Source: a virus. From it: 55,434 nucleotides of DNA. The translations under genes and the position numbers were made by a program. Shown here piece after piece: positions 1,485-53,797 of this stretch (position 1 is its first letter; each line of letters begins with the position of its first letter). The stretch spans positions 1-55,434 of the IMG/VR virus record IMGVR_UViG_3300047471_000544. One strand, written 5' to 3'. Below the pieces are notes generated by a model. It saw only the letters and a program-made list of their open reading frames with translations. It did no database searches and was not told where the DNA came from.

Positions 1485-1690
1485 GCGGCGATCGCATTGC
1501 GCCCGTTCTGGTCCTGCGTGCTCGAGCCGAGGCGTGGTCTTTGCTGTTTCGCTGCGGCGAATTCACGCTCGGCGACGCGCTCGACCCGCTGTTCGCCTAT
1601 GCCCATAAGGCCGGTCTGGTCAAAACGCTGGGCACGGAAGCGATTGAGAACATCGTCTACGACGCATTCGGAATCGAGCCTTCTGCATGA
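1481..1690 (+). CDS. Small conserved early protein
   Basis: 69 aa, overlapping both neighbours by 4 nt. Leucine-rich and mildly acidic in its second half (LGDALDPLFAYAHKAGLV). The copy at 50575-50784 is the same length with only a few changes. No domain recognised. Its position directly before the replication ATPase in both operons suggests a helper role in replication, which is inference only. Confidence 0.7.
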   Translation: MSGDRIAPVLVLRARAEAWSLLFRCGEFTLGDALDPLFAYAHKAGLVKTLGTEAIENIVYDAFGIEPSA

Positions 1691-3090
1691 CAGAACGAGG
1701 CCAATTCACGCGAGGTTTTGCGACATGGAAAAGCATCCTGGCGCCAGTCCAAGACGTTGAGCGTCGCATGGCGATCTTCGAAAGCATGGCGCTCGAGGTT
1801 GCTGGCTACGTTGCCAAGGGCCTCAATAAGGGAACGGCGATCGATGAACTCTACTCGACCGCGCAAGCCAATGGCCTGGTCGGACATTTCGGCGAGGACG
1901 GTGTGCAGGCGCGCATCGCACACGGCTTTGAGAAGGGTGAGCATATCGAAGAGCCGGGCAAGGCAAATGGCGTCAGGCCGCCGAAGCCGCTCAAGCCGCT
2001 GCCGATGATCAACGTCACGCTTTGGGAAGGCGTGTCGCCGCCCGAGCGCCGATGGATCGTGCGCAACCGAATTCCGGCACGCAACGTCACGCTGTTTTCA
2101 GGTGAAGGCGGCGTTGGCAAAACATTACTGACGATGCAGCTCGCGGTCGCCACCGTGCTCGGCCGTGATTGGATCGGCGAATTGCCAGAGCCAGGGCCGG
2201 TCATGTTCATCACAGCTGAAGACGACGAGGATGAAATCCACTTCCGTATGACAAAGATCGTCCAGCACTACGGCACCAGCTTTCGCGCACTCGGTGATCT
2301 GCACTTTCTCAGCCTCGCCGGCAAAGATGCCGTCATGGCCGTGGTCGATGGCAAAGGCATCGTGCGTCCAACACCGCTGTTCGCACAACTTCAAGCCACA
2401 GCGCGTGTGATACGCCCACGCTGGATCGGGCTCGATACCGCCGCCGATATTTTCATATGCGACGAGCGCAACCGCACCGAAGCGCGGCAATGCATCGGCC
2501 TATTGCGCGGCCTGTGCCTCGAGATCGATACCGCAATATTGCTGCTCTCGCATCCAAGCCTCTCAGGCATCGCCAGTGGTAGCGGCATGTCAGGCTCAAC
2601 TGCTTGGAATAATTCAGTCCGATCTAGGCTTTACCTCAAGGCGCCCAACAAGCAGGGCGACGAGGACGACGACGAGTCCGATGTCCGTGTCCTCGAAACC
2701 ATGAAGGCTAATTATGGACCGAAGGGCGAGCCGATCAGGCTGGTCTGGAAAGACGGCCTGCTATTGACTGAGCCCGGATCAACCTCGTTGGAAAAACTTT
2801 CGCACGAAGAAGACGCCAAAGCGATCTTTCTCGCCATCCTCGAGCGGTACAACAAGCAAGACCTGACCGCCAGCGCAACACCGACCGCGCGCAATTTCGC
2901 GCCTACCATTTTTGCCGATCAGCCGGAAGCAAAGGCGCTGCATGCGAAAAAAGCCACTCGCAAACACCTCCTCCGAGCGGCAATGGATTACCTCATGTTT
3001 CAGGATAAAATCTATCAAGCGAACGGGCCGCAATCGAAGCCGAAATCACTGCGGTCGCCATGCCTCTACAAGGCAGGCCAGATGCTATGA
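1687..3090 (+). CDS. RepA-like AAA ATPase / replicative helicase
   Basis: 467 aa. Walker A is GEGGVGKT at residues 139-146, followed by ITAEDDEDE at about 175-183; Walker B ends in D250 (RWIGLD), and a sensor-like LLLSHPS sits around 286-292, followed by GSTAWNNSVRSRL at 303-315. This layout is typical of AAA_25/RepA-type ATPases that act as replicative helicases in phages and plasmids. An extra N-terminal part of about 100 residues and a C-terminal helical part lie outside the core. The gene ends the early operon and is followed at once by a repeat cluster that could be its origin. Copy B is at 50781-52184. Confidence 0.82.
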   Translation: MTERGQFTRGFATWKSILAPVQDVERRMAIFESMALEVAGYVAKGLNKGTAIDELYSTAQANGLVGHFGEDGVQARIAHGFEKGEHIEEPGKANGVRPPKPLKPLPMINVTLWEGVSPPERRWIVRNRIPARNVTLFSGEGGVGKTLLTMQLAVATVLGRDWIGELPEPGPVMFITAEDDEDEIHFRMTKIVQHYGTSFRALGDLHFLSLAGKDAVMAVVDGKGIVRPTPLFAQLQATARVIRPRWIGLDTAADIFICDERNRTEARQCIGLLRGLCLEIDTAILLLSHPSLSGIASGSGMSGSTAWNNSVRSRLYLKAPNKQGDEDDDESDVRVLETMKANYGPKGEPIRLVWKDGLLLTEPGSTSLEKLSHEEDAKAIFLAILERYNKQDLTASATPTARNFAPTIFADQPEAKALHAKKATRKHLLRAAMDYLMFQDKIYQANGPQSKPKSLRSPCLYKAGQML

Positions 3091-3100
3091 GAGGGGGTTT

Positions 3101-3152
3101 CGCACATCTTCGCCACATGCCTTCTCCACATATGAAACTATCTTTTCCACAT
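3101..3152 (+). other. Candidate replication origin repeats, copy A
   Basis: Just after the helicase gene are three 11-mers of the form CTTNNCCACAT (3108-3118, 3121-3131, 3142-3152). The last, TTTTCCACA, fits a relaxed DnaA box and the second, TTCTCCACA, is one base away. A related and longer array with four copies is at the same place in the second operon. Placement next to a RepA-like gene fits an origin; the role is inferred. Confidence 0.45.
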
Positions 3153-3179
3153 CTTTCCTTCTTCCCCCCGTACCCCCAA

Positions 3180-3233
3180 CCCGACCAAAGGAAGAAGGTC
3201 GGGTGTGGAATACCCGACTTCCTTTGGGTCGGG
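3180..3233 (+). promoter_or_regulatory. Long bulged RNA hairpin before NusG-like gene, copy A
   Basis: CCCGACC and AAAGGAAG on the 5' side pair with CTTCCTTT and GGTCGGG on the 3' side, and an inner stem GTCGGGT/ACCCGAC closes a 7-nt loop. The total is about 22 bp with a 1-nt bulge and a 3-nt AAG bulge. A pyrimidine-rich tract precedes it and no T-run follows, so it does not look like an ordinary terminator. The Shine-Dalgarno-like AGGAAG lies inside the stem. The element is kept at 52284-52339. Confidence 0.7.
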
Positions 3234-3298
3234 TTCCCCTGGTATTCGCGCCCCAGAAATTTGACGCCCTCGCCGCAGTCGCGGTAAAGGCAATGGCC

Positions 3299-3826
3299 AT
3301 GACCTTTTGGGCAGTGGCGCAAACCGTCTCGCAGAGGGAAACCTCCGTCGGCATCCGCCTCGCCGAGGAAGGCTTCGAGATCTTCGCCCCGCGGATTCGG
3401 ATCCACATCAACGGTACGCCGCGCATCGTGGCGCTGTTTCCCAGCTACCTGTTCGTGCGGGTGGTCGACCGCTGGCGGGTCATAACCAAGACCATCGGCG
3501 TCCTCGGCCTGATCATGGCCGGCGACCATCCGGCAGCCTGCCCGGACGCCGAAATCGAGAAAATCAAGGGCGCCACCATGCGCAATGGATTGGTACGACT
3601 ACCGAAACCACCAAAAACGCGGGCCTTCAAGCCAGGCCAAAGCGTGCGAATTAACTCAGGCTCCTTCTGCGGCTTCACCGCGATTTACCAGGGTATGAGC
3701 CCCCGCGACCGCGAAATCGTCCTGCTCGAAATGTTCGGCCGCGAGACCCGCATCGAGCTCGGCGCCGGCGATCTCGTGCAATCCGCGGAGCTACCTATTG
3801 CGGTTTTGCCCAATCAGAGCTACTAG
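3299..3826 (+). CDS. NusG/RfaH-type transcription antiterminator
   Basis: 175 aa. Residues 1 to about 100 form an NGN-like domain (FWAVAQTVSQRE, GFEIFAPR, VALFPSYLFV, W-R-V-I-T-K-T-I-G-V), and the end carries a KOW-like part (FKPGQSVRINSGSFCGFTAIYQG, REIVLLEMFGRET). Specialised NusG paralogues ride on RNA polymerase and allow read-through of long operons. The ATG at 3299 is chosen because it is conserved in copy B, whereas ATG 3293 is not; a GTG at 3203 within the hairpin loop is an alternative that would add 32 residues. It ends the early operon and faces the late genes, a good position for a late-gene activator. Confidence 0.8.
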   Translation: MTFWAVAQTVSQRETSVGIRLAEEGFEIFAPRIRIHINGTPRIVALFPSYLFVRVVDRWRVITKTIGVLGLIMAGDHPAACPDAEIEKIKGATMRNGLVRLPKPPKTRAFKPGQSVRINSGSFCGFTAIYQGMSPRDREIVLLEMFGRETRIELGAGDLVQSAELPIAVLPNQSY

Positions 3827-4140
3827 TCGTAAAACGCGTTCAATCAAATCACCATCGCTCGCGTGTATTGGTTTCCTTACATTGTTGTTGGTTTCCATTC
3901 CTCGCATCTATTGAGGGCCAAAATTCACGCCCCTCGACCGCGCGGCGCGCGTTTCCAAATAAACCCCGAATTGCTGTTTCACGTGAAACCTTGTCCCCGC
4001 GCAGGCGGGGAGCCCACAGTTGGCCGCTGGTGCGTTTTGTGCCAAGCCGCTAGGTGGGTGGCGGCCCACCAGAACAAACGCATGGGCGCGCCTGTGGCTT
4101 TGAAGCCGGGGTAGCCTGTGTGCCGGATAGGTGAACCACC
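3827..4140 (+). other. Intergenic region between early and late genes, copy A
   Basis: 314 nt without a convincing gene. The first 200 nt are conserved in copy B, including a GT-rich stretch and the parS palindrome. Copy A has an extra palindromic segment of about 22 nt (CCCCGCGCAGGCGGGG) directly after parS. Homology to copy B stops near 4050. The rest leads to the GTG start at 4141; I see no clear promoter. Confidence 0.6.
3975..3989. promoter_or_regulatory. parS: parS-type palindrome, copy A
   Basis: TGTTTCACGTGAAAC matches 15 of the 16 positions of the chromosomal ParB-binding consensus TGTTTCACGTGAAACA; the 14-bp core GTTTCACGTGAAAC is a perfect palindrome. The same 15 bases occur at 53081-53095 in the other prophage. 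Binding by host ParB is inferred from the match. Confidence 0.7.
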
Positions 4141-5511
4141 GTGAAGCGCAGCCCGAGTAAAATAGCGAAGGAAACGAAGGCACAGCCGGCCGAGCGCGTC
4201 GAGACCCGGTCGCTGGCCGAAATCACGCCCTATCCGCAGAACGCGCGCACGCACACCGACCAGCAGATCGAGCTCCTCGCCAACCTGATGCTGCGCTATG
4301 GCGTCGACCAGCCGATCGTGGTCGACGAGGCCGGCGTCATCCTCAAGGGCCACGGCCGACGGCTGGCGGCGATCAAGGCTGGCTTCGAGTCGTTCCCGGT
4401 GGTGGTGCAGCGCGGGTTGTCCGATGACGACAAGCGCGCGTTGCGCATTGCCGATAACCAGGTCGCGCTGTTGGCCGGCTGGGATCAGCAATTGATGCAG
4501 CTCGAGTTGGGTGAGTTGAAGCTGCACGGGTTCGATCTGCCGCTGCTCGGGTTTGGCGATGCTGAGCTGGCGTCGTTCCTTAATCCGGCCAATCCGGGGC
4601 TGACCGATCCGGACGAGGTTCCGGCGGCGCCCGCGGTCCCGATCAGCAAGCCGGGCGACGTTTGGTTGCTCGGTCGGCACCGTCTGGCTTGCGGCGACGC
4701 GACGATCGCGGCCGATGTGGCTAAGGCGATGGATGGGGCGGAAGCGAATTACGTTTTCACTTCGCCGCCCTATGGGATTAACCTCGAATACGAGCGCGGC
4801 GACAGCCTGGAACAGTTGGTCGAGCTCATCGCTGCGGTAATTGGGACCATCGATACCATTGTTGCGCCTGATGCTTACGCGACTATGAATTACGCCGACA
4901 TCTTCCGCCCAGGCGATGCTGGCTTCACGCCGATGTCCGAGCACTACCACAAGCCGTTTGCGGCGCTGGGTTGGTGCCTGCGGGGCAATAGGGTGTGGTT
5001 CAAGCCGTTCGGGCGACTGTCGCTGGCGTACGGAACATCGACCACCATGAACCTACGCGAGTGGGAATATGTGCGAACTTGGCGGCGAGGTCGCGGTAAG
5101 GAGAAGCTGCGAGAGCATGGGTTGAGTCTGCGCGGCGTGTGGAAGACGTTCGGCGATGACGCCGTCTTGTTGGATTGGAAGCAATACGACACCACCACGG
5201 ATAAGGCGACGCATCCGGCAGCGTTCCCAGTTGTCCTGCCAGTGACGGGGATGCGCTGCTATACCGATGAGAATGGCATTGTGTTTGAGCCATTCTCTGG
5301 CTCGGGCACCACCATCATTGCGGCCGAGATGACCGGACGCGCCTGCCGCGCGCTCGAGATCAATCCGGCCTATGTCGATGTCGCGGTGCTGCGCTGGCAG
5401 AGTTTCACCGGCGAGCAGGCGACGCTGGACGGGCAAACGTTCGATGAGGTCAAGGCCGACCGGCTAGGTAAGCGCCAGCATCAACCCGCAGAGGCCGCGG
5501 TAACGGCATGA
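4141..5511 (+). CDS. ParB-domain DNA methyltransferase
   Basis: 456 aa, GTG start. Residues about 22-130 form a ParB/sulfiredoxin-like domain with the LKGHGRRLA motif (68-76). The remainder is an amino-methyltransferase of the DNA N4/N6 type, with TSPPYG at 207-212 (motif IV) and FSGSGTT at 385-391 (motif I, AdoMet binding). The motif order IV then I fits the beta class. Fused ParB-methyltransferases are frequent just before phage terminase genes and modify phage or host DNA. The stop overlaps the next ATG. The second prophage lacks it; there the P27-type terminase follows directly. Confidence 0.85.
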   Translation: MKRSPSKIAKETKAQPAERVETRSLAEITPYPQNARTHTDQQIELLANLMLRYGVDQPIVVDEAGVILKGHGRRLAAIKAGFESFPVVVQRGLSDDDKRALRIADNQVALLAGWDQQLMQLELGELKLHGFDLPLLGFGDAELASFLNPANPGLTDPDEVPAAPAVPISKPGDVWLLGRHRLACGDATIAADVAKAMDGAEANYVFTSPPYGINLEYERGDSLEQLVELIAAVIGTIDTIVAPDAYATMNYADIFRPGDAGFTPMSEHYHKPFAALGWCLRGNRVWFKPFGRLSLAYGTSTTMNLREWEYVRTWRRGRGKEKLREHGLSLRGVWKTFGDDAVLLDWKQYDTTTDKATHPAAFPVVLPVTGMRCYTDENGIVFEPFSGSGTTIIAAEMTGRACRALEINPAYVDVAVLRWQSFTGEQATLDGQTFDEVKADRLGKRQHQPAEAAVTA

Positions 5512-6047
5512 CGACGCCCCCCGATAAGCCATTCAACTTCGCCGACATTTCCAAATCCCCTGAGCCGTACAAACGCAAGTCGCGGGCGAAAGACCCAAAC
5601 AATCCCACCAAGGGTGGCCGGCCGGCCGGAGCGCTCAACAAGCGCACCATCGCGGCGATCGAGAAAGCCAGAGCGAACGCGCCGGCCGTGCAGAAACTCT
5701 CGCTCACGAGCCTGCGCGAGACCGCGCGCTATCTCGGCTCGGCGATGGCGCTCAAGCAACCGTGGCAGCCCGACGGCCAACCGCGACCAGGCGGCGACTA
5801 CAAGATGTTCATGGAGCTCGCCGTGCTGCAGTTGCGATATCTCGAGGCGATCACGCCTTACGAGGCGCCACGGCTGGCGGCGATCGCGATGATGCCGCAG
5901 GGCGAGCAGCGGCGGACCATCGTCAATTGCACGATTCTCGATGAGCGCGGCGGCAAGGTGTACAGCGACGCGACGATCGAGGGCGATGCAACGGAGGTAG
6001 GGGAAGAGCAGCCGGCCGCCGCCGGTGACGAAGAGGCCGCGGCGTGA
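5508..6047 (+). CDS. Probable terminase small subunit
   Basis: 179 aa, overlapping both neighbours by 4 nt. The N-terminal part has a GGRPAGALNKRT motif seen in phage DNA-packaging proteins of the DUF5681 kind, followed by helices and an acidic Ala-rich tail. Location directly before the large terminase supports a role in recognising phage DNA for packaging. It is unrelated to the P27-type small subunit at 53315. The functional call rests mainly on context. Confidence 0.6.
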   Translation: MTTPPDKPFNFADISKSPEPYKRKSRAKDPNNPTKGGRPAGALNKRTIAAIEKARANAPAVQKLSLTSLRETARYLGSAMALKQPWQPDGQPRPGGDYKMFMELAVLQLRYLEAITPYEAPRLAAIAMMPQGEQRRTIVNCTILDERGGKVYSDATIEGDATEVGEEQPAAAGDEEAAA

Positions 6048-7315
6048 TGCTCGAGCAGGTGCCGCAGGAGATCATCTATCAACGGCCGCCGTTGTATTCC
6101 AAGCAGATGGCGGCGATGTTCGATCCGCGCCGCATCTCCGTTATCGAGGCGAGCAGCAAGAGCGGCAAGACCGTCAGCGGCATTATCTGGCTGTACGAGA
6201 AGGCGCTGCAGGGTGCGCCCGGACAGAACTTCTGGTGGGTTGCGCCGGTGAGCCTGCAGGCGCGTATTGCGTTCAACCGCATGCGGCAGCATTTCGTCGA
6301 CCAGGACGGCCTGCCGATATTCGCCGTCAATCTCAGCGATCACACGCTGACTAACGCGCGCGGCGCCGTCATTGCGTTTCGCAGCGGCGATCATTCGGAC
6401 TCGCTCTACGGCGAGGACGTTTATGCGGCGGTGATCGACGAGGCGTCGCGCTTCAAACAGGAAAGCTGGCACGCCATCCGCTCGACCTTGACGGCAACGC
6501 GCGGGCCAATCCGCATCATCGGCAACGTCAAAGGTCGAAAGAACTGGTTTTACCAGCTCGCGCGCATGGCCGAGGCTGGCTCTCCGGAACTCGGTTACCA
6601 CAAGCTCACGGCCTATGACGCGGTGGCGGCGGGCGTGCTGGCCGACGCAGAGATCGAGTCGGCCAAGACGATGCTACCGGACCATGTGTTTCGCGAGTTG
6701 TATCTCGCCGAGCCGAGCGATGACGAAGGCAATCCGTTTGGCGCCGATCACATTCGCGCTTGCATTGCGCCGCTCTCCGGCAAACCGGCGGTAGCGTGGG
6801 GTTGGGATCTGGCACGCAAGCAAGACTGGACGGTTGGCATCGGGCTTGATGCCGAAGGCTGCGTCTGCGTAGCGCTGCGGTTTCAGAAGCCGTGGTCTGA
6901 GCAAGTCAAGATCATCAAGAAGTTTGTCCATAGCACGCCGGCGCTGATCGACGAGACTGGGGTTGGCGATCCCATCGTGGATGCAATCAAGCGGCCGGAC
7001 CACAGCAGGAGCGGCAATGGCGCCGACGTCTACGAGTTGTCGTGCCCGCGGCTGGAAGGTTTCCGGTTCACCAGCGCATCCAAGCAGATGCTGATGGAGG
7101 GCCTGGCGCTCGCCATCCACGAGCGCAAGATCCGCTTTCCGCAAGGCCCGATCAGCATCGAGTTGGACAATTTCGAATACGAGTTCACGCGGCTCGGCGT
7201 GCGCTATTCGGCGCCGGCGGGCCAGCATGACGACTGCGTTTGCGCGCTTGCGTTGGCGTGGGCGTGCTTCGAACGCAAGAAGCGCGGGTACAATCTCGAT
7301 GCTTTGGCCAGTTAA
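6044..7315 (+). CDS. terL: Terminase large subunit
   Basis: 423 aa. ATPase part: Walker A-like EASSKSGKT (35-43) and Walker B-like AAVIDEAS (128-135). Nuclease part: GWDLARKQDWT near 260, LIDETGVGD, and GQHDDCVCALALA starting at residue 393, the spacing of an RNase H-like gp17-type nuclease. The enzyme pumps DNA into the prohead and cuts it. Its sequence is clearly different from the large terminase at 53801, so the two prophages package with unrelated motors despite near-identical early operons. Confidence 0.85.
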   Translation: MMLEQVPQEIIYQRPPLYSKQMAAMFDPRRISVIEASSKSGKTVSGIIWLYEKALQGAPGQNFWWVAPVSLQARIAFNRMRQHFVDQDGLPIFAVNLSDHTLTNARGAVIAFRSGDHSDSLYGEDVYAAVIDEASRFKQESWHAIRSTLTATRGPIRIIGNVKGRKNWFYQLARMAEAGSPELGYHKLTAYDAVAAGVLADAEIESAKTMLPDHVFRELYLAEPSDDEGNPFGADHIRACIAPLSGKPAVAWGWDLARKQDWTVGIGLDAEGCVCVALRFQKPWSEQVKIIKKFVHSTPALIDETGVGDPIVDAIKRPDHSRSGNGADVYELSCPRLEGFRFTSASKQMLMEGLALAIHERKIRFPQGPISIELDNFEYEFTRLGVRYSAPAGQHDDCVCALALAWACFERKKRGYNLDALAS

Positions 7316-38679: not shown

Positions 38680-38855
38680 CGCGGCTTTTGCCCGAGCCTT
38701 CAGGCTGGCCCGTGGTGCGCCCGGCCCCCTGGGAAGATGGGTAGCGGGCGCGTGCGGAACGCGCACGGGTGGCCGCTTGTGGGGCTTTGGGAGCATTCCT
38801 ACCCTGGGGCCTACTTCGGCCCTTCCTGCGCCCTACCCGGCGCCCATCTGCGCAA

Positions 38856-39153: not shown

Positions 39154-40395
39154 ATGAAGCTCTCCGACAAGACGATCCGCACCCTGGCCTGCCCGGCCGG
39201 CAAGACCGACACGACGTTCTGGGACGAGGGCATCCCCGGCTTCGGGCTCCGCGTCCGCGCCAGCGGCGCCCGGACCTGGACCGTCATGTACGAGGTCGAT
39301 GGCCGGGGGCGGAAGATATCGCTGGGCTCGCCGGCGATCGTTCCCGCGGCCGCGGCGCGCGCCAAGGCCAAGGACATCATGGCGGCCCGCCGGCTCGGCG
39401 GCGACCCGGCCGGCGACAAGACCACCTCCCGTGCCGAGGCGGCCACGACGATCGGCGCCCTGCTGCCGCGGTATCTCGTTTGGAAAGCGCCGCGGCTCAA
39501 GCCGAAGACCGTGCGCGAGACCACCCGCCACCTCAACAAGTGCCTGCGGCCGCTGCACCGCGAACCGATCACCGCCGTGACCCGCGCCATGATCGCCCGG
39601 CGCCTCACCGAGCTCAGCGCGTCCAACGGCTCGGGCGAGGCGACCCGGGCGCGCGCCTCCTGGTCCGCGTTCTTCATGTGGGCATGCCGGGAAGGGCTGA
39701 TCGAGAGCAACCCGGTTGCCTTCACGAATCCGCCGCGCGAGCCCGTCGTCCGCGACCGCGCCGTCACCGATCCCGAGCTCGGCGCCATCTGGCGCGCGCT
39801 CGACGGCGATGACGTGGACGCCGATTATGCGGCCATCGTCCGGCTTCTGATCCTCACCGGCGCGCGGCGCGATGAGATCACCAGCCTGCGGCGCGGCGAG
39901 ATCGATATCGGGGCGGCGTTGATTACCCTGCCGGGCGCCCGCGTCAAGAACAGCCGCGAGCATGTCATCCCGCTCTCGGCGCCGGCGCGCGCCATCCTCG
40001 CGGCCCGGCTGCAGCACCGGCCCGATAGGGATCTGGTGTTCGGCTACGGCGAAGGCCCGTTCTCCGGCTTCGCCAAGGCGAAAAAAGAGCTTGACGCCAA
40101 GCTCGGCCCCGCCGTCGCGCCCTGGCGCCTGCACGACTTCCGGCGCTCGATATCGACCGCCTTGCACGAGCGCTTCGACGTGCCGCCCCATATCGTGGAG
40201 ACCATCCTCGGCCACGTCGGCGGCCACAAGAGCGGCGTGGGCGGCGTCTACAATAAGGCCCTCTACCTCGACCAACGCCGCGCCGCGCTCGAACGGTGGG
40301 CCGCACATGTCATGCAGCTCGCCGGCAACCGAATTGGGCGTCCGCGCCGCGCGGCGCTCGCTGACAACGTCGTCGCGCTCACCACCGGAGTTTGA
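39154..40395 (+). CDS. int: Tyrosine integrase
   Basis: 413 aa. An N-terminal DUF4102-like arm-binding domain (DKTIRTLACPAGKTD, WDEGIPGFGLRV), a core-binding part, and a catalytic domain with R238 (GARRDE), H327-x-x-R330 (LHDFRR), H354 (LGH) and the nucleophile Y366 or Y371. It cuts and joins att sites to integrate or excise the prophage. It lies between the two prophages, so it could belong to either. The upstream gap with repeats is a candidate att/arm region. Confidence 0.88.
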   Translation: MKLSDKTIRTLACPAGKTDTTFWDEGIPGFGLRVRASGARTWTVMYEVDGRGRKISLGSPAIVPAAAARAKAKDIMAARRLGGDPAGDKTTSRAEAATTIGALLPRYLVWKAPRLKPKTVRETTRHLNKCLRPLHREPITAVTRAMIARRLTELSASNGSGEATRARASWSAFFMWACREGLIESNPVAFTNPPREPVVRDRAVTDPELGAIWRALDGDDVDADYAAIVRLLILTGARRDEITSLRRGEIDIGAALITLPGARVKNSREHVIPLSAPARAILAARLQHRPDRDLVFGYGEGPFSGFAKAKKELDAKLGPAVAPWRLHDFRRSISTALHERFDVPPHIVETILGHVGGHKSGVGGVYNKALYLDQRRAALERWAAHVMQLAGNRIGRPRRAALADNVVALTTGV

Positions 40396-41538: not shown

Positions 41539-41851
41539 CGCCGTTCCCCTTCTTCGGCTCGCCGGCGTCGAGGCGCTCCTGCAACGCGCGGATGGTTTCG
41601 ATGACGTTGGTCGAGCGGTTGACGAAGTCGGCGACCTGCTCGCCGGCGATCTTGCTGTGCTCGCGCACGGCGGCGGCGAGCTTGCGCAGCTTCGTGCCGA
41701 TCTCGCCCGCGGCCAGCTCGACCGCCGCTGCCGCTTCCTCGATCTCGTGCGCGGCGGACTCGCCGATTTGATCGACAGCTTGAACAGTGACGCCGGCGAG
41801 CGCCAGCGGGTCACGAGCTCGCGGCGGTATGTAGTCTTGCTCGGTGGTCAT
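41528..41851 (-). CDS. Hypothetical helical protein
   Basis: 107 aa starting MTTEQDYIPPR; the ATG overlaps the methyltransferase stop (ATGA). The middle is an Ala/Glu helix region (HEIEEAAAAVELAAGEIGTKL) that could form a coiled coil. Function unknown. Confidence 0.6.
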   Translation of the reverse strand: MTTEQDYIPPRARDPLALAGVTVQAVDQIGESAAHEIEEAAAAVELAAGEIGTKLRKLAAAVREHSKIAGEQVADFVNRSTNVIETIRALQERLDAGEPKKGNGGDV

Positions 41852-42900
41852 GTGCTCCTCATTGGCTGTTGGAACGTCCGCGCGATATGGCGGGCGAGCG
41901 GCTGCGGTATCTTGGCGATCATGGCCGAGGCGAACTTGCGGGTTTTTCCAATGTGCTGGCGCTTGTCGTCTGCGGTGCGCCGGTATTGCGCGCCCTCGAC
42001 CATGTGACCGAATTCCCGAGCGTTGGCGACATTGAAGCCCACTGCGGACAGGTCGATGCCGGGTTGTTTCAGTCCATCGTCGTATTTTTTGCCCTTCTGG
42101 CCGCCTTGCCGCGTCGGACATGTTGGATCGCGAAACCAGTCGCCAGCGTGTTTCCGCCCATCCGGGTTGCGGCCTTTGCCGCTGGTCGTGTTGTGGGCGA
42201 CGGCGAACCACGAGCCGCCGGTGTTCTTGATGTCCTCGCGCAGCCGTCGCTCAGCGGTGGTATTGAACGCCTGCGCCTTGTAGCCGGGTGTCCCGTAGCC
42301 GTTGAAGTAGATGCCGCCGACTTTGGAGCCAATCGATGCGGATTGAATGATATGCCCTGGAGACCCATTGAATGGGCGCCGGACATAGCCCGGTTTCTCT
42401 GCGTTGTTTGGCTGCCCATTTACAAGCGGAACCTTCGGTTCTCTCAAACGCGATGTGACCGGCATGAGCGCCGGCACGTCGCCCCACAGATAGAACGAGC
42501 CGAAGTTCCAGCGCGCCCGCCCGACCCATTTCTGCGCGCCGCGCACGTTCTCGACGATCATCGGCACATGCCGGCCGGCCGCCTCGCACGCCTCCCGCTG
42601 GATGCGGAAACACGCCTCGAACAGCGTGTTCTCGGGTGGCGGGAGCGCCCTGGCGCGCTTCCACGGCATGGCGCGGTAGCTGTAGGCTTGGCAGGGCGGG
42701 CTGGCCACGATCAGCGCAGCGTCCCGGAACTGGCTCCCGTGCAGTGTGGTCACGTCCTGCAACACGAGCTGGGCCGGATAGCGGTGGTCGCCGTAGACAT
42801 GCCGCTCGATGTCGAAGCCGACCACGTCGTAGCCCTCAGCCAGCAGCGCCTCGGTCCAGCCGCCCAGGCCGCAGAAGAGGTCGATGGCGAGCGGTTTCAT
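41848..42900 (-). CDS. C5 cytosine DNA methyltransferase
   Basis: 350 aa. Motif I DLFCGLGGWTEAL (7-19), motif IV with catalytic Cys in SPPCQ (67-71), motif VI ENVRG (117-121), and a conserved end KFASAMIAKIP. It methylates cytosine, perhaps to shield phage DNA from restriction. The middle 150 residues hold glycine-rich blocks that occur in reversed order in the paralogue at 49551. Its first 145 residues are almost identical to that paralogue. A strong divergent promoter lies 33 bp upstream. Confidence 0.85.
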   Translation of the reverse strand: MKPLAIDLFCGLGGWTEALLAEGYDVVGFDIERHVYGDHRYPAQLVLQDVTTLHGSQFRDAALIVASPPCQAYSYRAMPWKRARALPPPENTLFEACFRIQREACEAAGRHVPMIVENVRGAQKWVGRARWNFGSFYLWGDVPALMPVTSRLREPKVPLVNGQPNNAEKPGYVRRPFNGSPGHIIQSASIGSKVGGIYFNGYGTPGYKAQAFNTTAERRLREDIKNTGGSWFAVAHNTTSGKGRNPDGRKHAGDWFRDPTCPTRQGGQKGKKYDDGLKQPGIDLSAVGFNVANAREFGHMVEGAQYRRTADDKRQHIGKTRKFASAMIAKIPQPLARHIARTFQQPMRST

Positions 42901-48803: not shown

Positions 48804-49329
48804 TTTAGCGACTGTCACGGGGTGGGCAAGAGGCGTCGTCGGCGGCACACCGATCGCCGGCTCGGTGCGCTTCGGTACGCGCGAGGCCAGCGAAGGCGAG
48901 GTCTTCAGCCAGGCCATCGGTTGGATGAGCAAGGTGCTCCAGATGCAACCGCGGCCGGACGTGATCGTGGTCGAGGCCATGCTGCCGCCCGGCGCCAAGG
49001 TCGGACAAACGAATTCCTCTACGCGCGACCGGCTCGCCGGCCTGCACGCCATCGTCCGCGGCGTCGCGCACATCCGCGGCATCAGCGAGATCGCCTGCTA
49101 TTCGGTCGCCGACATCCGGCAGCATTTCATCGGCGAGCGCAGCCTCAAGCGGGCGCAGGCCAAGGCGGCGATCGTGTTGCGCTGCGAAATGCTCGGCTGG
49201 CAGGCCGTGGACAATAACGCTGCAGACGCGTTGGCCGCGTGGAGCTTTGCTTGTTCCCTGATTGACCCGACACAGGCGCTCAAGGTGTCGCCGCTGTTTA
49301 ACCAGCGATTGCGGGTTCATGTGCAATGA
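48778..49329 (+). CDS. RuvC-like resolvase with rebuilt 5' end
   Basis: 183 aa from the ATG at 48778, which overlaps the end of the homing endonuclease gene by 26 nt. D9 in VLAIDLATVTG, E66 in VIVVEAML and D150 in NNAADALA are kept, so it should be active. Codons 1-19 differ from the phage A gene mostly at silent positions and are AT-richer, while the rest is nearly identical. The stop overlaps the next ATG. Confidence 0.82.
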   Translation: MSALVLAIDLATVTGWARGVVGGTPIAGSVRFGTREASEGEVFSQAIGWMSKVLQMQPRPDVIVVEAMLPPGAKVGQTNSSTRDRLAGLHAIVRGVAHIRGISEIACYSVADIRQHFIGERSLKRAQAKAAIVLRCEMLGWQAVDNNAADALAAWSFACSLIDPTQALKVSPLFNQRLRVHVQ

Positions 49330-50369
49330 CCGAGCGCTACCAATGGACCTATGCCTATGCTCAGCGCAACGAAGGGACTGGGACGAGCCGGCTCGACGAC
49401 TTCCTAGCACTCGGCTGGTTGCCGCACGACAGCCTGGCGAACACCGCACACGAGCAATATGCCGTTCTCGTCGAATGGCTATGCGATTGCCATTGCCCAT
49501 TTCCGCCCAAAGTAGAACGGAACACCGCATCAGGCGCAAAGGGAGCGGCCATGAAGCCGCTCGCCATTGACCTGTTCTGTGGGCTCGGCGGCTGGACCGA
49601 GGCGCTGCTGGCCGAGGGCTTCGACGTGGTGGGCTTCGACATCGAGCGGCACCACTACGGCGACCACCGCTATCCGGCCCAGCTCGTGCTGCAGGACGTG
49701 CTGACGCTGCACGGGAGCCAGTTCCGGGACGCCGCGCTGATCGTGGCGAGCCCGCCCTGCCAGGCCTACAGCTACCGCGCCATGCCGTGGAAGCGCGCCA
49801 GGGCGTTGCCGCCGCCGGACAACAGCCTGTTCGAGGCGTGCTTCCGCATCCAGCGCGAGGCCAGCGAGGCGGCCGGGCGGCACGTCCCGCTCATCGTGGA
49901 GAACGTGCGCGGGGCTCAGAAATGGGTCGGGCGCGCGCGCTGGAACTTCGGCTCGTTCTATCTGTGGGGCGACGTGCCGGCGCTGATGCCGGTGACAATG
50001 CGGCGCGAGGCCACCAAGGCCCCCGGCTGCGCGGCGAATGTGCCCGGCATCGGCTGGACCGGCTTTGCCAATGAAGGCTGGCGCGACCATCACGCCACGA
50101 AGAACGCCGGCGGCTCGTGGTTCGCCATCGCCCACAACACGACCAGCGGCAAGGGGCAAAACCCGGATGGGCGCAAGGTCGGCGGCATTGACTTCAACGG
50201 CTACGGAACGCCCGGCTACAAGGCGCAGGCGTTCAACACCACGGCGCAGAAACGGATTGGCGGCACCCGCAAGTTCGCCTCGGCCATGATCGCCAAGATT
50301 CCCGCCCCGCTCGCCCGCCATATCGCGCGGACGTTCAAAGCAATCCAGCAAGAATGGGAGCGGCCATGA
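49326..50369 (+). CDS. C5 cytosine methyltransferase fused to small early protein
   Basis: 347 aa. Residues 1-75 match the 63-residue protein at 1087, whose stop is missing here; residues 76-347 are a C5 methyltransferase (272 aa) with DLFCGLGGWTEAL, SPPCQ and ENVRG. A GGGAG site before the ATG at 49551 suggests that the enzyme is also made alone. The first 145 residues of the enzyme match the one at 41848, but the middle is shorter and its blocks are in another order. The coding cassette is flanked by 14-bp direct repeats. Confidence 0.85.
   Translation: MTERYQWTYAYAQRNEGTGTSRLDDFLALGWLPHDSLANTAHEQYAVLVEWLCDCHCPFPPKVERNTASGAKGAAMKPLAIDLFCGLGGWTEALLAEGFDVVGFDIERHHYGDHRYPAQLVLQDVLTLHGSQFRDAALIVASPPCQAYSYRAMPWKRARALPPPDNSLFEACFRIQREASEAAGRHVPLIVENVRGAQKWVGRARWNFGSFYLWGDVPALMPVTMRREATKAPGCAANVPGIGWTGFANEGWRDHHATKNAGGSWFAIAHNTTSGKGQNPDGRKVGGIDFNGYGTPGYKAQAFNTTAQKRIGGTRKFASAMIAKIPAPLARHIARTFKAIQQEWERP
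49541..49554 (+). repeat. Cassette-flanking direct repeat, left
   Basis: GGGAGCGGCCATGA, identical to 50356-50369. It provides the ribosome binding site and start of the methyltransferase part. Confidence 0.8.
50356..50369 (+). repeat. Cassette-flanking direct repeat, right
   Basis: Second GGGAGCGGCCATGA. It contains the methyltransferase stop and the ATG of the following gene. Confidence 0.8.
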
Positions 50370-50578: not shown

Positions 50579-50784
50579 CCGGCGATCGCGTTGCGCCAGT
50601 TCTGGCCTTGCGCGCTCGAGCCGAGGCGCGGTCTTTGCTGTTTCGCTGCGGCGAATTCACGCTCGGCGAGGCGCTCGACCCGCTGTTCGCCTATGCCTAC
50701 AAGGCCGGCCTGGTCAACATGCTGGGCACGGAAGCGATTGAGAACATCGTCTATGACGCATTCGGAATTGAGCCTTCTGCATGA
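50575..50784 (+). CDS. Small conserved early protein, copy B
   Basis: 69 aa, counterpart of 1481-1690, differing at a few residues (for example K-T-L to N-M-L). Overlaps both neighbours by 4 nt. No domain recognised. Confidence 0.7.
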   Translation: MTGDRVAPVLALRARAEARSLLFRCGEFTLGEALDPLFAYAYKAGLVNMLGTEAIENIVYDAFGIEPSA

Positions 50785-52184
50785 CAGAACGAGGTCAATT
50801 CACGCGAGGCTTCGCGACATGGAAAAGCATCCTGGCGCCTGTCCAGGACGTTGAGCGTCGCATGGCGATCTTCGAAAGCATGGCGCTCGAGGTTGCCGGC
50901 TACGTTGCCAAGGGCCTCGATAAGGGAACGGCGATCGACGAACTCTACTCGACCGCGCAAGCCAATGGCCTGGTCGGACATTTCGGCGAGGACGGTGTGC
51001 AGGCGCGTATCGCACACGGCTTCGAGAAGGGTGAGCATATCGAAGAGCCGGGCAAGGCAAATGGCGTCAGGCCGCCGAAGCCGCTCAAGCCGCTGCCGAT
51101 GATCAACGTCACGCTTTGGGAAGGCGTGTCGCCGCCCGAGCGCCGATGGATCGTGCGCAACCGAATTCCGGCACGCAACGTCACGCTGTTTTCAGGTGAA
51201 GGCGGCGTTGGCAAAACCTTGCTGACGATGCAGCTCGCGGTCGCCACCGTGCTCGGCCGTGATTGGATCGGCGAATTGCCCGAGCCTGGCCCGGTCATGT
51301 TCATCACGGCTGAAGACGACGAGGATGAAATCCACTTCCGTATGACAAAGATTGTCCAGCACTACGGCACCAGCTTTCGCGCACTCGGTGATCTGCACTT
51401 TCTCAGCCTCGCCGGCAAGGATGCCGTGATGGCCGTAGTCGATGGCAAAGGCATCGTGTGCCCAACGCCGCTATTCGCACAGCTCCAGGCCACCGCGCGT
51501 GAGATACGTCCACGCTGGATCGGACTCGACACCGCTGCCGATATATTCGTGGTCGACGAGCGCAATCGAACCGAAGCGCGTCAATGCATCGGCCTGTTGC
51601 GCGGCCTGTGCCTCGAGATCGATACCGCAATATTGCTGCTCTCGCATCCAAGCCTCTCAGGCATCGCCAGCGGTAGCGGCATGTCCGGCTCAACCGCCTG
51701 GAATAATTCAGTCCGATCTAGGCTTTACCTTAAGGCGCCCAACAAGCAGGGCGACGAGGACGACGACGAGTCCGAAATCCGCGTCCTCGAAACCATGAAG
51801 GCCAATTATGGGCCAAAGGGCGAGCCGATCAGACTGACCTGGCGTGACGGTTTACTGTTGTCCGAGGCGAGGCCGACGTCGCTGGAGAAACTCTCGCAAG
51901 AGGAAAACGCCAAAACCATCTTTCTCACCATCCTCGAGCGGTACAATAAGCAAGACCTCACCGTCAGCATAACCCCCACCGCGCGCAATTTCGCGCCCAC
52001 CGTCTTTGCCGATCAGCCTGAAGCAAAGGCGCTGCATGCGAAAAAAGCCCCCCGCAGGCACCTCCTCCGAGCGGCAATGGATTACCTCATGTTCCAGAAT
52101 AAAATTTATCAGGCGAACGGGCCGCAATCCAAACCAAAATCAAAGCGGTCGCCATGCCTCTATAAGGCAGGCCAGATGCTATGA
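50781..52184 (+). CDS. RepA-like AAA ATPase, copy B
   Basis: 467 aa, same length as the phage A protein. Walker A GEGGVGKT (139-146), Walker B ending in D250 and the SHPS sensor are unchanged. Differences cluster near the C terminus (for example N-A-K-T-I-F-L-T versus D-A-K-A-I-F-L-A). Followed by a four-copy repeat array. Same inferred role as replicative helicase. Confidence 0.82.
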   Translation: MTERGQFTRGFATWKSILAPVQDVERRMAIFESMALEVAGYVAKGLDKGTAIDELYSTAQANGLVGHFGEDGVQARIAHGFEKGEHIEEPGKANGVRPPKPLKPLPMINVTLWEGVSPPERRWIVRNRIPARNVTLFSGEGGVGKTLLTMQLAVATVLGRDWIGELPEPGPVMFITAEDDEDEIHFRMTKIVQHYGTSFRALGDLHFLSLAGKDAVMAVVDGKGIVCPTPLFAQLQATAREIRPRWIGLDTAADIFVVDERNRTEARQCIGLLRGLCLEIDTAILLLSHPSLSGIASGSGMSGSTAWNNSVRSRLYLKAPNKQGDEDDDESEIRVLETMKANYGPKGEPIRLTWRDGLLLSEARPTSLEKLSQEENAKTIFLTILERYNKQDLTVSITPTARNFAPTVFADQPEAKALHAKKAPRRHLLRAAMDYLMFQNKIYQANGPQSKPKSKRSPCLYKAGQML

Positions 52185-52256: not shown

Positions 52257-52283
52257 GTTCCCTTCTTCCCCCCGTACCCCCCA

Positions 52284-52339
52284 CCCGACCAAAGGAAGAA
52301 GGTCGGGTGTGTGGAACACCCGACTTCCTTTGGGTCGGG
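52284..52339 (+). promoter_or_regulatory. Long bulged RNA hairpin before NusG-like gene, copy B
   Basis: Same outer stem and same two bulges as copy A. The inner stem is longer, GTCGGGTGT/ACACCCGAC with a 5-nt loop: a 2-nt insertion and a paired change keep and extend the pairing. This supports selection on RNA structure. Confidence 0.72.
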
Positions 52340-52404
52340 TTCCCCTGGTATTCGCGCCCCAGAAATTTGACGCCCTCGCCGCCGCCGCGCTAAAGGCAAA
52401 ACCC

Positions 52405-52932
52405 ATGACCTTTTGGGCAGTGGCGCAAACCGTCTCGCAGAGGGAAACCTGCGTCGGCATCCGCATCGCCAGCGAAGGCTTTGAGATCTACGCCCCGCGG
52501 ATTCGGATCCACCTCAACGGTACGCCGCGCATCGTGGCGCTGTTTCCCAGCTATCTGTTCGTGCGGATCGTCGACCGCTGGCGCATCATAACCAAAACCA
52601 TCGGCGTGCTCGGCCTGATCATGGCCGGCGACCATCCGGCCTGCTGCCCGGACGCCGAAATCGAGAAAATCAAGGGCGCAACCATGCGCAACGGTTTGGT
52701 AAAGCTACCGAAACCACCGAAGGCGAGGTCGTTCAAGCCAGGCCAGAACGTGCGAATTACCTCGGGATCGTTCTGTGGATTCAACGCGATCTACCAGGGC
52801 ATGAGCGCCCGCGACCGCGAAATCGTCCTGCTCGAGATGTTCGGCCGTGAGACCCGCCTCGAGCTCGGAGCCGGCGATATCATCCAATCGGCAGAGCTAC
52901 CTATTGCGGGTTCGTCCCATACGAGCTACTAA
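52405..52932 (+). CDS. NusG/RfaH-type antiterminator, copy B
   Basis: 175 aa, same length as the phage A protein. NGN and KOW features are kept (FWAVAQTVSQRE, ALFPSYLFVRIVDRW, FKPGQNVRITSGSFCGF). The ATG at 52405 aligns with 3299, and the residues just before it differ, which supports this start. It precedes a different terminase module, so its target must be in the shared DNA or be general. Confidence 0.8.
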   Translation: MTFWAVAQTVSQRETCVGIRIASEGFEIYAPRIRIHLNGTPRIVALFPSYLFVRIVDRWRIITKTIGVLGLIMAGDHPACCPDAEIEKIKGATMRNGLVKLPKPPKARSFKPGQNVRITSGSFCGFNAIYQGMSARDREIVLLEMFGRETRLELGAGDIIQSAELPIAGSSHTSY

Positions 52933-53219
52933 TCGCAAGTCGCGATCAATCAAAGTTCCATCGGTCGCGTGCATTGGTTGCTTTGCATTGTTGTTGGTTT
53001 CCATTCCTCGCATCTATTGAGGGCCGAAATCCACGTCCCTCGACCGCGCGGCGCGCGTTTCCAAATACACCCCGAATTGCTGTTTCACGTGAAACGCCCA
53101 CAGTTGGCCACTGATGCGTCTTGTGCTTTGCCGCTATCCAAGTAGTCGCTATCGCGAATAACGCACCAGCGACCTCCGGGCGGCCTTGGCGGCCATGTCT
53201 GCAATGCCGGGGGGGGGAG
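52933..53219 (+). other. Intergenic region between early and late genes, copy B
   Basis: About 290 nt with no convincing gene. The first 190 nt match copy A and hold parS; the rest is unique and ends in a run of nine G (53210-53218). Confidence 0.55.
53081..53095. promoter_or_regulatory. parS: parS-type palindrome, copy B
   Basis: TGTTTCACGTGAAAC, identical to 3975-3989. The palindromic GC-rich insert that follows it in copy A is absent here. Confidence 0.7.
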
Positions 53220-53318
53220 ATGCTAAAATTAGATCCCCCGGCAGGCTATGAGCGCCGTCTTAGTCCAATTTTTGAACTTGCACATAGTTTTGGCACTGAG
53301 AAAAAGGAGGCGGTATGA
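53220..53318 (+). CDS. Possible 32-residue leader protein
   Basis: MLKLDPPAGYERRL..., ending in a TGA that overlaps the small terminase ATG. A G-rich sequence precedes it but too close for a good ribosome binding site. Weak candidate supported only by the overlap. Confidence 0.3.
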   Translation: MLKLDPPAGYERRLSPIFELAHSFGTEKKEAV

Positions 53319-53797
53319 AGCGTGGACCAAAGCCGCAGGCGACGCACCTCAAGCTGCTGCGGGGCAATCCTGGCATGGCGCTGAATCGGCTGAACTTCAA
53401 CGAACCGAAGCCCGATGCGCTTGCCGATGTGCCCGGCCCGCCTTCGTTTTTGGTTGGGCCTGGTGCCGAGGAGTGGCGCGTCGTTTGCGAGCAGCTTAGG
53501 CGACTTGGGATGCTGGTGAAGGTCGATTTGCCTGTGTTGGCCGCCTATTGCCATGCCTTTCAGCAATGGCGCGCGGCGGTGGATATCCTAGCGATGATGG
53601 CGGCGGACGATCCGATGACGCGCGGCCTGCTTATCGAGGGAAAGCCGAACCCGCTGATAGCGGTTGCGCATCGGGCTTCGATCGACATGGTGCGGTTTGC
53701 CAACGAGTTTGGGTTCACGCCGGTCGCGCGCGTGCGCATCCAGGCGCCGGCTGATGGCGGCAAGCCCAGCAAGTTCGGCGAGCTCCTGGCGGATTAA
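53315..53797 (+). CDS. terS: P27-family terminase small subunit
   Basis: 160 aa with AAAAGGAGG upstream. N terminus KRGPKPQATHLKLLRGNPG is the P27 family signature; A-A-Y-C-H-A-F-Q-Q-W and N-E-F-G-F-T-P-V-A-R complete it. It recognises DNA for packaging with the large subunit that follows 3 nt later. Unrelated to the packaging genes of phage A. Confidence 0.85.
   Translation: MKRGPKPQATHLKLLRGNPGMALNRLNFNEPKPDALADVPGPPSFLVGPGAEEWRVVCEQLRRLGMLVKVDLPVLAAYCHAFQQWRAAVDILAMMAADDPMTRGLLIEGKPNPLIAVAHRASIDMVRFANEFGFTPVARVRIQAPADGGKPSKFGELLAD

Follow-up and report, generated by a model that had tools for sequence, protein, structure and literature searches.

Hairpin and NusG gene as probably separate neighbors

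A long hairpin and a gene for a NusG paralogue lie side by side in the phage DNA analyzed here, and on balance we favor reading them as two separate neighbors. The hairpin would be part of a Rep-linked replication origin, or of a Rep-bound control region, behind the gene for a RepA-type helicase, and the NusG paralogue would act as a late-gene factor in the manner of lambda Q. As judged from the relatives compared, the hairpin is not a signal required by this NusG family; it tracks the type of the upstream repA gene.

Organization of the two phage copies

The window, i.e., the whole stretch of DNA that was analyzed, is an IMG/VR virus record of 55,434 nucleotides (IMGVR_UViG_3300047471_000544). 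It holds a tandem pair of related phages with about 49.1 kb between matching stretches. The genes of copy A run in the order RuvC-like, RepA-type helicase, nusG, ParB-N/methylase, terminase, and portal, beyond which are those for a head protease, a major head protein, a tape measure protein, and an endolysin; the integrase gene is at 39154. The matching stretch of copy B starts near 48.7 kb and ends, cut, past its terminase gene.

The helicase gene of copy A (1687–3090, + strand), here called type 1, encodes an AAA_25 replicative helicase (PF13481, E 6e-30; phrog_906/239, primase-helicase) that is 33% identical to RepA of Wolbachia phage WO. Behind it come a C-rich, G-poor stretch with CCACAT and TTNNCCACA repeats (3108–3165), which is DnaA-box-like and also rut-like, and then the hairpin (3178–3235). 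The NusG/RfaH-family gene (3299–3826, +) is followed by a conserved non-coding block (3864–3989), a candidate late-control region that ends in a perfect parS-type palindrome, GTTTCACGTGAAAC (3976–3989). The first late gene of copy A encodes a fusion of ParB-N and a DNA methyltransferase (4141–5511, +), and the terminase large subunit is encoded at 6044–7315 (+). In copy B, the RepA-type helicase gene lies at 50781–52184 (+), the hairpin at 52282–52341, the NusG-family gene at 52405–52932 (+; its protein is 87% identical to that of copy A), and the conserved block at 52970–53095 with parS at 53082–53095; the first late gene is that for the terminase small subunit (53315–53797, +). The early regions also carry a pair of related genes for DNA methyltransferases that are inverted relative to each other (41848–42900, − strand, and 49326–50369, + strand), with arms that are 84–91% complementary.

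The NusG paralogue and its late-switch position

The initial annotation assigned the gene to the NusG family, and profile searches bore this out (PF02357, E 2e-12; phrog_6386, "transcription antiterminator," E 3e-17). An NGN domain (PF02357, residues 6–91) is followed by KOW, as in the NusG/RfaH superfamily, and a profile aligns through the KOW of the RfaH (PDB 2oug) and NusG (2jvv) structures with an E value of 1e-10. The score is 78.2 bits with the RfaH model TIGR01955 (curated cut-off 144.5) and 23.4 bits with the LoaP model NF033641 (curated cut-off 125), and the protein is also under the cut-off of the NusG model. The most likely start of nusG is the ATG at 3299, with an SD-like AAAGG just 5′ of it. 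A GTG start inside the hairpin, as suggested previously, is not credible: relatives with other leaders have no in-frame upstream start beyond a second ATG two codons earlier, and in locus L013 a stop codon stands just 5′ of this point. Variation at third codon positions of nusG is at least double that at the other positions, and the protein is, as judged from its sequence variation, under selection.

Close relatives of this NusG are encoded on 16 viral contigs. Scans of genome contigs for relatives found none, and phage and plasmid collections yielded distant NusG/RfaH matches only. In four loci (L187, L188, L190, and L209), nusG is a mosaic: the N-terminal half resembles that of L014, and the C-terminal half has diverged and ends in a longer tail; the DNA 3′ of nusG differs in these loci, and parS is retained.

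The position of nusG between replication and late genes was confirmed, with the AAA_25 helicase gene 5′ and terminase and head genes 3′. The order repA, array, nusG, optional methylase, TerS, and TerL is conserved down to 43% NusG identity, and nusG-(MT)-TerS-TerL was found in L007, L012, L013, L016, L190, and L206, the last at 43% identity. This synteny across relatives supports a late-switch position like that of lambda Q. As read from its position, the NusG paralogue could plausibly be a Q-like late antitermination factor: it would serve as a late-gene elongation factor that carries RNA polymerase through the virion genes, and any loading signal would be expected in the block 3′ of nusG and not in the upstream hairpin.

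Compared to known systems, the phage protein shows both likenesses and differences. As with lambda Q, the phage gene lies past the replication genes and before the terminase gene and late operon, and a conserved cis block then follows; the protein family of Q, however, is unrelated to the phage NusG. RfaH, which is recruited via the ops element (PMC7819879), resembles the phage protein in a full-length match over NGN and KOW (78 bits), but the phage protein falls below the cut-off of 144.5 and is phage-encoded between replication and terminase genes. A literature search of incomplete coverage found no description of a NusG paralogue that regulates late genes in a phage.

Structure and variation of the hairpin

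A stable hairpin before nusG had been reported in both copies, and this was upheld: none of 200 shuffled sequences was as stable, at −41.2 kcal/mol in copy A (z −4.7) and −43.7 in copy B (z −4.8). From the earlier description of a 22-bp stem with 1-nt and 3-nt bulges, the 1-nt bulge was retained; folding now gives a stem of 24 bp, and the other bulge is of 4 nt. The arms are made of four alternating ACCCGAC heptamers, and the hairpin includes two tandem inverted repeats, ACCCGACC-N10-GGTCGGGT and ACCCGAC-N9-GTCGGGT, which are found elsewhere in the window only as their copy B counterparts. The apical part of the folded hairpin is GUGUGGAAUAC and has no UNCG loop.

Just two distinct hairpin sequences exist. 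Copy B differs by a GT insertion and one G·U to G-C change, with no two-sided changes and no compensatory pair change between the copies; the statement that structure is conserved more than sequence was not confirmed. The minus strand of the hairpin folds nearly as well (−39.3). The DNA of the hairpin is thus nearly palindromic, and its folding does not demonstrate an RNA function; for the same reason, the covariance model described below also matches the opposite strand. When an RNA of 150 nt (3091–3240) is folded, the best structure in copies A and B is one in which the CCACAT/pyrimidine tract pairs with the 5′ arm, not the hairpin (−52.0 versus −48.8 in A; −51.0 versus −49.5 in B), and in the RNA of L007 the hairpin is favored over this alternative.

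The hairpin accompanies the type of helicase gene

The leaders of the close NusG relatives sort into types. The hairpin is present solely in loci with a type-1 repA, namely the two copies of the window, L007, and L008 (L006 is cut), and the type-1 RepA genes are about 96% identical. Where RepA shares only 35–43% identity with type 1, the leader is of another kind, though NusG is 77–93% identical. The check suggested in the initial annotation, a search with a covariance model for the hairpin near further phage NusG genes, covered 37 sources; only type-1 loci scored above noise, and the outcome is negative. The proposal that NusG reads its own leader hairpin is not supported by these observations: the hairpin is missing before NusG genes of 77–93% identity, it goes with the helicase type, and in some phages with no NusG match this slot holds iterons. 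On the evidence of the relatives' leaders and the covariance model, the hairpin was rejected as a NusG-linked RNA element.

In L009, a type-2 leader is fused to type-1 sequence right before nusG, as a recombination joint would produce. Such a joint just 5′ of nusG would yield an identical linkage, whatever the role of the hairpin. No type-1 repA phage without this NusG was found, and the linkage for type 1 therefore depends on type 2 as an analogue and on a small number of sequences.

A candidate replication origin behind repA

Rep-linked origins usually take the form of a repeat array that accompanies the rep gene. A search with type-2 RepA led to 29 loci. Four to eight copies of GGGACA/TGTCCC lie within 400 nt past repA in 15 of the 19 RepA-2 loci tested (0 of 500 shuffles each), and in two of the remaining four, L185 and L188, inspection of 900 nt placed the repeats about 600–800 nt out, past an inserted gene or stretch. 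In 11 RepA-2 records (16–61 kb, possibly fragments), the array is present with no NusG match anywhere in the record. Since the array persists with or without nusG, the repeats behind repA go with the helicase in these relatives. For a more distant primase-helicase, in L063, ATGTCGTTGATT iterons follow the gene (0 of 300 shuffles); L205 encodes a related protein in which a Toprim-like region and an AAA_25 helicase are joined.

By analogy with these relatives, the slot after repA is probably best read as a RepA-linked replication origin. In type 1, four copies of ACCCGAC were reached in 5 of 300 shuffles, those copies being the hairpin arms, and the count of CCACAT repeats alone is not beyond chance. 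Because this repeat evidence is weaker, the origin reading of the hairpin itself is drawn by analogy. Replication would start at the slot, where the ACCCGAC heptamers, preceded by the CCACAT repeats, may be bound by proteins or may form a hairpin for single-strand initiation. Local minima of the cumulative GC skew fall at 3998 (first 20 kb) and 53177 (last 15 kb), and the maximum is at 38793; the minima agree with an origin near the hairpin but are confounded by gene direction. The region resembles the iteron origins that adjoin RepA-type phage helicase genes in its AAA_25 helicase, 33% identical to RepA of Wolbachia phage WO, and in the arrays that relatives carry 3′ of the gene. This putative origin differs in that type 1 has a long hairpin and few repeats instead of a clear direct-repeat array. 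L015 and L201 are one 49.5-kb contig in which repA is cut at one end and nusG lies close to the opposite end, which would fit a circular or permuted genome that was opened within the repA–origin–nusG stretch.

The conserved block and parS

The block 3′ of nusG has the same length, 126 bp, in all 18 near-family copies, and about 22% of its sites vary, versus 55% of nusG third codon positions in these copies. Each phage copy has it once, and a search of the viral collection for the core motif with flanks found it only behind this NusG. An Rfam search gave no match, and no sigma-70 consensus promoter was found in 3000–4200. The block is a better candidate than the upstream hairpin for the place to seek a loading or promoter signal. 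Two other identities were tried and rejected for it: as a small protein, its variable sites are distributed 11/12/7 by codon position and a stop is present in L013; as a structured RNA, it is no better than shuffles in copy A (z 0.1 and 0.3) and weak in L014 (z −1.0).

The block ends in GTTTCACGTGAAAC, which agrees without mismatch with the core of TGTTTCACGTGAAACA, the parS consensus (PMC10197239). Among near NusG relatives, parS is retained whatever gene comes next, even without the ParB-like methylase, and capture by host ParB is conceivable. Viral contigs often contain the parS pattern: at least 120 viral stretches (IMG/VR contigs, L064–L182) have exact TGTTTCACGTGAAAC, with several copies in L078, L090, and L134, and none of the parS loci L064–L142 encodes this NusG. 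Phages of the L188 type have an L014-like N-terminal NusG domain and retain parS with the block core absent, and L203 and L206 (43% NusG) have neither; both patterns count against a simple partnership of NusG and the block. It is rather improbable that NusG replaces lambda Q, loads at the block, and drives the late operon while parS ties late transcription or the phage DNA to host ParB.

Alternative explanations for the hairpin

The C-rich tract and hairpin could together be a terminator or attenuator, of a Rho-type or two-state kind, that closes the early operon and is later overridden by NusG. We think this unlikely. A rut-like composition, 36 C and 4 G over 80 nt, would suit it, as would the two mutually exclusive folds of similar energy and a short stem with a T-rich tail at the same place in the type-2 locus L005. 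However, the + strand has no T-run past the type-1 hairpin, L005 exceeds the shuffle mean for terminator-like counts by only about 1.6 sd, and the C-rich tract is missing from type-2 leaders, where the maximum of C minus G is 13–15. The heptamers might also be operators for a phage DNA-binding regulator of nusG and the late genes, with no part in an origin. The two tandem inverted repeats, unique in the window but for their copy B counterparts, are in keeping with this explanation, to which we give little probability; the counterpart repeats in type-2 loci follow repA and persist without nusG.

The initial annotation put forward a LoaP-like mechanism, with NusG first binding the RNA of its own leader hairpin and afterwards taking RNA polymerase through the late genes; this is very improbable. 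Its appeal is that a stable hairpin is kept beside nusG in copies A and B and that LoaP, itself a NusG paralogue, requires a hairpin in the leader (PMC12691694). LoaP of Bacillus velezensis is indeed alike in being a NusG paralogue with a hairpin near its gene, but it reads a small hairpin with a UNCG loop in the leader of its target operon (PMC12691694), whereas the phage hairpin precedes nusG itself, lacks such a loop, and is not kept with NusG, being absent before nusG in all type-2 leader loci. In addition, the LoaP model score is 23 against a cut-off of 125, and two of three copies slightly favor the alternative fold.

Significance

In the favored reading, with the hairpin belonging to the Rep-linked region and the NusG paralogue acting separately, a hairpin that adjoins a NusG gene need not be that gene's signal. 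The conserved block offers a defined place to look for a NusG loading signal. If the NusG paralogue is the late switch, this phage family, in which synteny is clear, would have a NusG-based equivalent of lambda Q.
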